A stretch of 42,096 nt of DNA from an uncultured Lachnospiraceae bacterium (GTDB taxonomy: Bacteria > Bacillota > Clostridia > Lachnospirales > Lachnospiraceae), in NCBI GenBank assembly GCA_902788645.1, contig CADAKW010000040.1:1-42096 (forward strand). Direction: 5' to 3'. Of this stretch, positions 20,010 to 22,110 are shown piece after piece. The notes under the pieces were generated by a model. The model saw nothing but the letters and a program-made list of their open reading frames with translations, was not told the DNA's origin and searched no databases. Numbering within the stretch: the first letter of the stretch is position 1; each line of letters opens with the position of its first letter. The translations under genes and the position numbers were made by a program.

Positions 20010-20059
20010 AACAGCCTCGGATATCACCGAAATGTGAAAAGGTGATATCCGAGGCTGTT
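20010..20059. terminator. Bidirectional terminator between the GNAT and DUF4250 genes
   Basis: A 19-bp perfect stem, 20010-20028 with 20041-20059, with a 12-base loop and a short T-run on the plus strand; the minus strand gives TTATTATTGC after the stem. Confidence 0.85.
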
Positions 20060-20083: not shown

Positions 20084-20260
20084 TTATACAAATCGGTTGG
20101 TAGCAGCATTATAGCTGTAATCTATCGATTTTAATTTATCGCAGATCTGCTGCTGGTCCAGATCCATGGATTTGCACAGCTCCTCAAGACTCGGATAAAA
20201 GTCACGAAGCTGTGTGTTAATGTAACTGACCAGCATCATAGGATCATTTGGAATATTCAT
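20084..20260 (-). CDS. DUF4250 domain protein
   Basis: A 58-residue protein that is a single DUF4250 domain (pattern PNDPMMLVSYINTQLRD, then FYPSLEELCKSMDLD). The family is small, found mainly in Clostridia and gut Bacteroidota, without known function; the helix-turn-helix-like appearance suggests nucleic-acid binding but this is not shown. GGAGG lies eight bases before the ATG at 20260; the earlier TTG at 20272 is less suitable. A long palindromic element lies just upstream. Confidence 0.85.
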   Translation of the reverse strand: MNIPNDPMMLVSYINTQLRDFYPSLEELCKSMDLDQQQICDKLKSIDYSYNAATNRFV

Positions 20261-20275
20261 GGGAACCTCCAATTT

Positions 20276-20795
20276 TATGATTTCTTACTCAAACTTCGTA
20301 CACCGATTATTAGATGACGCCCATAATATTTTTTATGTTTCAAGAAAATAAATATAGATTTTTGCCTCGGAATGTTTGCGGATACCGTGAGGCTGTGACA
20401 CCAAAATTGACGCAGATCAGTAGGATTTTTGAAAAGTCTTTGCTTTGCAATGTTTCGATGAATACGTGTCTGGACGACTGAGCCTCCTGGGTGGGTTCAG
20501 CTATTTCGACAGGCACGCTCCCGCTACAATGCGCTACGCAGCACTACATAGCATCCTACAAAACAGGATGCAAGTAGTGGCGAGCGCAAGTGCCTTACGA
20601 AACACGTTCATCGAGTATCGAAACAGCAAAGCATTTAGACTTTTCAAAATCCGTAAGTGACAAGACAATTTTGGTGTTACCAGCTCACGGCTGCTAAAAA
20701 AATCTAAGGCAAAAATCATATTTACAATCTGAACATAAGAAATATTATGGGCGCAGCAGTATATGACCTGTGCGAAGTTTGAGTTTCTTATATCA
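20276..20795. repeat. Long imperfect inverted-repeat element (about 520 bp)
   Basis: The whole gap between DUF4250 and murG folds back on itself. Paired blocks include ACTCAAACTTCG near 20287 with its complement near 20773; GCCCATAATATT (20319-20330) with 20741-20752; ACACCAAAATTG (20398-20409) with 20666-20677; and a central GCATCCT/AGGATGC hairpin (20551-20571). The arms are unequal, with extra sequence on the left arm. There is no convincing gene inside. It resembles a miniature, non-autonomous palindromic repeat. The gap from 20261 to 20795 holds nothing else I can identify. Confidence 0.7.
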
Positions 20796-21872
20796 TTACT
20801 TCTTTTTGTTTTTTGCAGAAACATTGATCAGTTCCACGATCTTTTCGATGGAATTGTTGAGCTGGCTTCGCTGCATTGCCTTGATGAAACGCTCTTTTTC
20901 ATTAAATGCGGTATTGACGGCGTTCAGGAGCTTTTCGTTGGTGAGCTCCTCCTCCTGGATCACAATGCTATAGCCCTGCTTCTCGAAGGAGGCGGCATTC
21001 AGGATCTGGTCTCCGCGGCTTGCCTGGGCGGAAAGCGGAATCAGGATGTTTGGTTTACGAAGAGCAAGGATTTCACAGATGGCATTGGCTCCGGCACGGG
21101 AGATCATAATATCTGCGGCCGCCATAAGATCCCGCAATTCCTCCTTTATGTACTCAAACTGTACATAGCCCTTTGTATCCTTAAGAGAATCATCCATCTT
21201 ACCTTTGCCACACAGATGAATGATCTGGAAACGCTCCAGAAGCTGTGGAAGGATTGCTCGTACAGCTTCATTTACCCGGACTGCGCCAAGACTTCCGCCG
21301 ATGATCAGGATCACAGGCTTATCATCTGTGAAACCACAGAAAGCAAGCCCTTTTTCCTTGCTGCCCTTGAAAAGCTCCTGACGGATCGGAGAACCCGTAA
21401 GCACTCCCTTGTGCTCCGGCAGATGCTTTAAGGTCTCAGGAAAGTTCGTACAGACTCTGTCTGCGCAAGGGATACAGATCTTATTGGCAAGTCCCGGTGT
21501 CATATCGGATTCATGGATCACACATGGAATATGACGGGATTTGGCTGCGACAACTACAGGAACGGAAACAAACCCTCCCTTGGAAAATACCACGTCAGGG
21601 CGGATGAGCTTTAACAGCTTGCGTGCCTGACTGTATCCACGGATTACCTTAAAGGGATCGCTTAAGTTTTTGGGATCAATATAGCGGCGCAGCTTGCCGC
21701 TGGAAATACCGTAATATGGAATGTCAAGCTCCGGGATCAGCCGGCTTTCAATGCCCTCATAGGAGCCGATATAGTGAACCTCGTAGCCCTGCTTTTGCAG
21801 CTCCGGGATCAGGGCGATGTTTGGTGTTACATGACCGGCGGTACCTCCACCGGTAAGAACTATTTTTTTCAT
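20796..21872 (-). CDS. murG: UDP-N-acetylglucosamine-lipid I transferase
   Basis: MurG adds N-acetylglucosamine to lipid I to form lipid II at the inner face of the membrane, the last step before export of the wall precursor. The glycosyltransferase (GT28) marks are TGGGTAGHVTPN at the start, the KGGFVSVPVV segment, the GGSLGA loop and ISRAGANAICEILA for the donor sugar. It has 358 residues. The ATG at 21872 begins MKKIVLTGGG, as in the family; a TTG four codons earlier is less likely. It stands alone, away from a division-and-wall cluster. The end lies right at the border of a long palindromic element, with no normal terminator visible. Confidence 0.96.
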   Translation of the reverse strand: MKKIVLTGGGTAGHVTPNIALIPELQKQGYEVHYIGSYEGIESRLIPELDIPYYGISSGKLRRYIDPKNLSDPFKVIRGYSQARKLLKLIRPDVVFSKGGFVSVPVVVAAKSRHIPCVIHESDMTPGLANKICIPCADRVCTNFPETLKHLPEHKGVLTGSPIRQELFKGSKEKGLAFCGFTDDKPVILIIGGSLGAVRVNEAVRAILPQLLERFQIIHLCGKGKMDDSLKDTKGYVQFEYIKEELRDLMAAADIMISRAGANAICEILALRKPNILIPLSAQASRGDQILNAASFEKQGYSIVIQEEELTNEKLLNAVNTAFNEKERFIKAMQRSQLNNSIEKIVELINVSAKNKKK

Positions 21873-22110
21873 TTTATATACCAATCCTTTCTTGAAGAAT
21901 AAACAGGTTGTAAAAGCGACAGTCTCCTGGTTTCTATAATATATCAGAAATCATTCGCTTACTGTCTAATCTATTATATTAGTATTGGAGTATTTTATCA
22001 ACAGAAACTTGGTTTCACAATTTGAACACGAATTCTACACGATTTCAACAAGAAATCTGCGTATACTAGGCGTAGTATTTCACTTATTTGTAAGAAAGGT
22101 AAGGTGTCAT

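Follow-up and report, generated by a model that had tools for sequence, protein, structure and literature searches.

The window analysed here, a stretch of 42,096 nucleotides from an uncultured Lachnospiraceae bacterium, carries a long imperfect palindrome between murG and a DUF4250 gene. The palindrome is very probably a non-autonomous type II MITE that has only its end repeats in common with ISPepr1-like insertion sequences (ISs) of the IS4 family. It is short, has no transposase gene, shares terminal repeats with ISs, is flanked by a target-site duplication and belongs to a dispersed multicopy family, the features by which MITEs are recognized. A preliminary description had suggested either a miniature mobile element or a long structured RNA. 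The former is supported by multiple copies, target duplications, an empty site in both congeners and ISs with the same ends, whereas the latter is not supported: no Rfam match or excess of G-U pairs was observed, and related elements shrink to end hairpins of 43 bp. The unusual 520-bp hairpin next to the cell-wall gene murG is accounted for by the MITE reading.

Structure and boundaries of the palindrome

The palindrome at 20276-20795 was confirmed, its inverted blocks pairing end to end and including stretches of 22 nt at 95%, 25 nt at 84%, 16 nt at 94% and 13 nt at 100%, among others. The MFE of positions 20270-20800 was -223 kcal/mol on the plus strand (shuffled mean -121.1, sd 5.65, n=100; z -18.0) and -211.5 on the minus strand (shuffled mean -124.9, sd 6.09; z -14.2), and on neither strand was any shuffled sequence as stable as the native fold. 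From end repeat to end repeat the element proper occupies 20288-20783 (496 bp), slightly less than the interval first described. It is flanked by two exactly identical 7-bp copies of TTTCTTA, at 20281-20287 and 20784-20790; no strand is assigned to the element, the duplications or the apical stem-loop. The left terminal inverted repeat, CTCAAACTTCGTACA (20288-20302, plus strand), agrees at 14 of 15 bases with an IS end on contig C92 of the same genome, and the right one, CTCAAACTTCGCACA (20769-20783, minus strand), agrees at all 15 bases with the left IS end on that contig. Further inwards, a motif search placed the subterminal arm motif CCATAATATNTCTTATG at 20321-20337 (plus strand, one mismatch) and at 20734-20750 (minus strand, no mismatch). 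The apical stem-loop GCATCC..GGATGC (20551-20571) differs among copies with its pairing kept; in apical helix 18, both sides have changed in 5 of 7 pairs and 98% of cells are paired across seven copies. In agreement with the preliminary description, the palindrome contains no clear gene and no transposase, its two small ORFs being without a Pfam match.

Insertion site between murG and the DUF4250 gene

Both neighbours lie on the minus strand, murG upstream at 20796-21884 (PF03033 and PF04101) and the DUF4250 gene downstream at 20084-20260 (PF14056, E 1.2e-27). In the minus-strand reading the murG stop codon directly precedes the element, and a GGAGG is located between the element and the ATG of the DUF4250 gene. 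Three genomes of the genus are referred to below, namely the window's own (G000; 2.41 Mb in 160 contigs, 80% complete) and two congeners (G001 and G002). In both congeners searched, murG adjoins the DUF4250 gene with no hairpin between them, an empty site that is defined by gene adjacency because the G000 spacer cannot be aligned base by base with the congener spacers.

Two other inverted repeats were noticed in this neighbourhood. The GNAT and DUF4250 genes converge on a perfect 19-bp inverted repeat at 20010-20059 (AACAGCCTCGGATATCACC / GGTGATATCCGAGGCTGTT), which is probably an ordinary bidirectional terminator. In G001, a 120-bp hairpin with similar ends and the arm motif (L158:1461-1580) is situated just 3' of the DUF4250 gene. 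It occupies another position within this small gene cluster and lacks an exact duplication.

Distribution of related elements

About 30 separate related stretches were found on 25 of the 160 contigs of G000 (E <= 1e-3), a count made by hand in which an element split between two contig ends may have been entered twice; they show 70-97% identity over the matched parts. The window element is therefore not the single copy, with no sign of insertion in relatives, that the preliminary description had named as the finding that would speak against it. With up to two mismatches allowed, the arm motif occurs 36 times in G000 (5 for the reversed control), 68 times in G001 (3) and 5 times in G002 (4). The end repeat, at the same tolerance, was matched 30 times in G000 against 2 for its reversed control, and 115 matches were found in G001. 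When the whole element was searched against 61 genomes, matches at E <= 1e-5 were restricted to G000 and G001, the two genomes with the long form, and in both of them contig ends often fall within copies. A scan for the arm pattern in a contig collection, possibly one without records of the window's own genome, returned 16 stretches, all in the MAG Lachnospiraceae bacterium SUG799. Carriage by phages or plasmids was considered and rejected, as the arm pattern was unmatched in viral contigs and blastn searches of plasmids and phages were empty; these collections, too, may lack records of the window's own genome.

Terminal repeats and target-site duplications

Elements of the family are 43 to 568 bp long, and their ends are variants of CT(C/A)A(A/G)ACTTC(C/G)CA. 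Like the TTTCTTA duplication around the window element, the duplications over all end pairs peak at 7 bp. Exact 7-bp duplications flank 17 of 46 end pairs taken from retrieved loci; when the right flanks were reshuffled 2000 times, 0.96 pairs on average and at most 5 had one. Exact 8-bp duplications flank 2 of the 46, and exact duplications of 4, 5, 6, 9, 10 or 11 bp flank none. Among the 27 end pairs with neither an exact 7-bp nor an exact 8-bp duplication, 6 look false, an end having been paired with an internal motif; these (L123, L137, L227, L228, L232 and the second L218 pair) were retained in the 46. More diverged ends, such as those of L113 with TTATTAA on both sides, fall outside this count. 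At 17 of the 19 insertions with duplications no ORF of at least 100 aa runs across the rejoined site, and at the other 2 there is one of 123-124 aa.

Several members depart from the common form. The minimal elements, of 43-51 bp, hardly extend beyond the two end repeats (L234:2281-2331, L187:15-57 and L135:2138-2180), and those at L234 and L135 are flanked by exact 7-bp duplications. A second subfamily in G001 (L218, L221, L227 and L231) has ends of the form CTCAAACTTCGCACA(C/A)C and a differing outer interior. One of its members, L218, contains an outward-facing end-like site within its arm that matches at 13 of 15 letters. A further related copy in G000 (L015; C48:15995-16320 plus flanks) has outer arms that are complementary to each other and bear no resemblance to the end repeat seen in other copies.

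Two other accounts of how the elements arose were rejected. An origin of the palindrome from two inverted 150-bp units found no support: the internal end-like site of the window element matches at 11 of 15 letters, and 111 of 200 shuffles scored as high. In the 18 elements tested, such a site rose above the shuffles only in L218 (0 of 200 as high), which belongs to another subfamily. Insertion into pre-existing terminators was first raised in view of outer arms that vary from copy to copy. Judged by eye, most of these arms are variants of one end repeat and are followed by the 7-bp duplications, with L015 as an exception.

The probable partner insertion sequence

Of the 397 scanned genomes of this bacterial family, 87 contained the end pattern CTMARACTTCSCACAMC with one mismatch allowed; at least 5 matches were present in 19 genomes by hand count, and the reversed control never gave more than 3. 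In 6 other genomes of the family, picked from the match list, two such ends stand 1583-1586 bp apart, and in a seventh they are separated by 2951 bp with an extra ORF inside. ORFs were listed for 4 of these 7 IS loci, and the three proteins scanned (459-474 aa) all matched NF049925 (transpos_IS4_4; E 1.8e-174 to 1e-177) as well as Pfam DDE_5 and DDE_Tnp_1. The 2951-bp copy (L244:1114-4064, genome G344) encloses a further ORF, transposase-like and 296 aa long, and its insert is presumably an IS3-type element.

In the window's own genome the IS that shares the MITE ends is incomplete, and the end consensus is shared with the 6 ISs of 1583-1586 bp. The end CTCAAACTTCGCACA at C92:6800 is followed by an open transposase frame that runs off the contig. 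Its N-terminus matches NF049925 (E 2.3e-66) and is 42-43% identical to the transposase of L240. This gene, cut off by the contig end, is the only transposase gene of the partner type found in G000. The same genome also contains an internally deleted ISPepr1-like IS of 312 bp (C11:12390-12701, or L245:1391-1702), which retains a transposase C-terminus at 83% identity together with a stop codon. No convincing NF049925 match was found in G001, the genome richest in copies; the sole hit there, of 23 bits on contig C74, lies in an ORF of 434 aa whose product resembles a transposase of a different kind.

According to Table 1 of De Palmenaer et al. (2008; PMC2266710), the ISPepr1 subgroup is characterized by a length of 1500-1600 bp, ends of the form YT-AA-YTT---A, presence of the YREK motif and direct repeats of 7-8 bp. 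The partner end CTMARACTTCSCA fits this end form, the fifth base departing where its R is G, and the 6 IS copies of 1583-1586 bp fall within the tabulated length range. Direct repeats of 7 bp flank L241 and L244 and one of 8 bp flanks L243, consistent with the tabulated sizes; the other 4 of the 7 IS copies have no exact duplication. The spacing Y-(2)-R-(3)-E-(6)-K is present in all three full transposases aligned, as IYGKRWQIEVFFKTCK in two and IYGKRWDIEVFFKSCK in one, this region being unassembled in G000. Judged by their sequences, the partner ISs thus fit the ISPepr1 type in ends, length, YREK motif and direct repeats, while NCBIfam assigns them to IS4_4 only.

These relationships suggest mobilization in trans. 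A transposase supplied by a partner IS would bind both ends of about 15 bp and excise the element, which would then be inserted at an AT-rich intergenic site through a staggered cut of 7 bp, sometimes 8 bp, giving rise to the flanking duplication. The copy in the window would have landed just past the murG stop codon.

Concerted change of the two arms

Covariation was counted in 7 of 18 oriented elements, the rest being omitted for central deletions or divergence, and the pairing scheme was the fold of the window element, that is, one derived from a single aligned sequence. In these seven long copies both sides have changed in 43 of 189 pairs, and 89.5% of 1306 cells are paired, compared with 35-44% when partners were slid. 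None of 500 shuffles reached the covariation score; for further pair types, one of the five covariation measures, the value of 78 was close to the average of 77.1 in the shuffles, 227 of which equalled or exceeded it. Many of the changed cells are accounted for by two inherited haplotypes, so the events are fewer than the cells. At the end repeats, which make up the 15 outermost pairs, 7 pairs have changes on both sides.

The arm motif was compared separately in 23 arm pairs at 16 fixed bases; pairs with a span of 18, in which the motif meets its own complement, were dropped, L183 was re-paired by hand and the pair of the window element was added. Ten elements of G000 showed 4 shared and 3 one-sided changes (with right arms shuffled 1000 times, mean 0.42 and maximum 3 shared), and 13 elements of G001 showed 4 shared and 10 one-sided changes (shuffled mean 1.14, maximum 4). 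Sharing between the arms exceeds chance, yet it is far from complete.

Mismatched positions in the 18 oriented elements comprise 72 G-U, 102 A-C and 360 transversion pairs beside 3074 matches, counts that serve as a pointer and not as a significance test because the elements are related. If pairing were selected in RNA, G-U would be expected to outnumber A-C on the RNA strand, and the reverse was observed. Because the arms often change together and the mismatches show no G-U excess, the long palindrome may be maintained by copying of DNA from arm to arm (template switching), a proposal that we make with less confidence. A transposon family whose ends stay matched because replication copies one arm from the other is a tentative idea, which we regard as possible though rather doubtful. 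If it is true, a change in one recognition end would pass to the other, so that the end sequence could shift with mobility kept, and the fully palindromic interior would be a by-product of arm copying.

Alternative explanations

The very stable fold and the paired changes in the stem are what a family of structured non-coding RNA genes, with the long stem selected as RNA, would also display. We consider this improbable. No Rfam family matched above its gathering score in the window, both strands fold about equally well in the 18 oriented elements, and the oriented strand carries no G-U bias. Moreover, related elements of 43-120 bp retain little besides their ends, promoter-like sites number 3 against a shuffled mean of 2.7, and target duplications are a mark of insertion. 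Even further from likely is that an intrinsic terminator, immobile, expanded in place: this is suggested by the stop codon that the palindrome adjoins, but it is practically discounted by the multiple copies, the target duplications, the IS-type ends and the failure to find a terminator-like site at the element.

A role in the transcript is compatible with the MITE reading. The element might have been co-opted as a 3'-end or processing signal of the murG-DUF4250 transcript, as an RNase III target or an insulator, given its place between two genes of the same strand, right after the murG stop codon and ahead of the DUF4250 ribosome site, and given that MITE transcripts form stable stem-loops according to the consulted parts of a review (PMC10969869). 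Since the element showed no terminator-like site and both congeners do without it, such co-option seems unlikely, though less so than the accounts above. That the element is a type I MITE, a decayed IS whose interior is left over from a transposase gene, is very improbable: G000 does hold one such remnant, on C11, but transposase searches of this genome matched C92 and C11 and not the window, and by eye the element resembles the ISs in its ends of about 15 bp only.

Comparison with known systems

On the type II MITE reading, the window element belongs to an expanded group of MITEs in this bacterial family that is linked to IS4 elements of the ISPepr1 type. In the literature listings searched, neither a MITE belonging to the ISPepr1 subgroup nor an earlier report of the window element came up. 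Compared with the ISPepr1 ISs as tabulated in PMC2266710, the window element lacks a transposase and is palindromic throughout. Type II MITEs, including QMITE, Chunjie and others, are treated in PMC10969869. In the parts of that review consulted, they resemble the window element in having a size of about 500 bp or less with a wide range of lengths, terminal repeats, a target duplication, an intergenic location, the ability to form a stem-loop and a similarity to ISs that is restricted to the ends. Unlike the MITEs described there, the window element pairs with itself throughout, and its arms, including the end repeats, often change together. The element is ordinary in kind, save for this tendency of both arms to change together.

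Template switching during DNA replication is presented in the consulted portion of PMC8794818 as an origin of paired changes in RNA hairpins. Should the arms with their end repeats truly change in step, the present family would provide naturally occurring material on which template switching between arms could be tested as a route by which a transposon keeps its ends matched. The likeness to those hairpins is that both arms of an inverted repeat change in pairs; the difference is that the hairpins there are RNA hairpins, whereas here the change involves a mobile element, including the ends that its transposase presumably recognizes.
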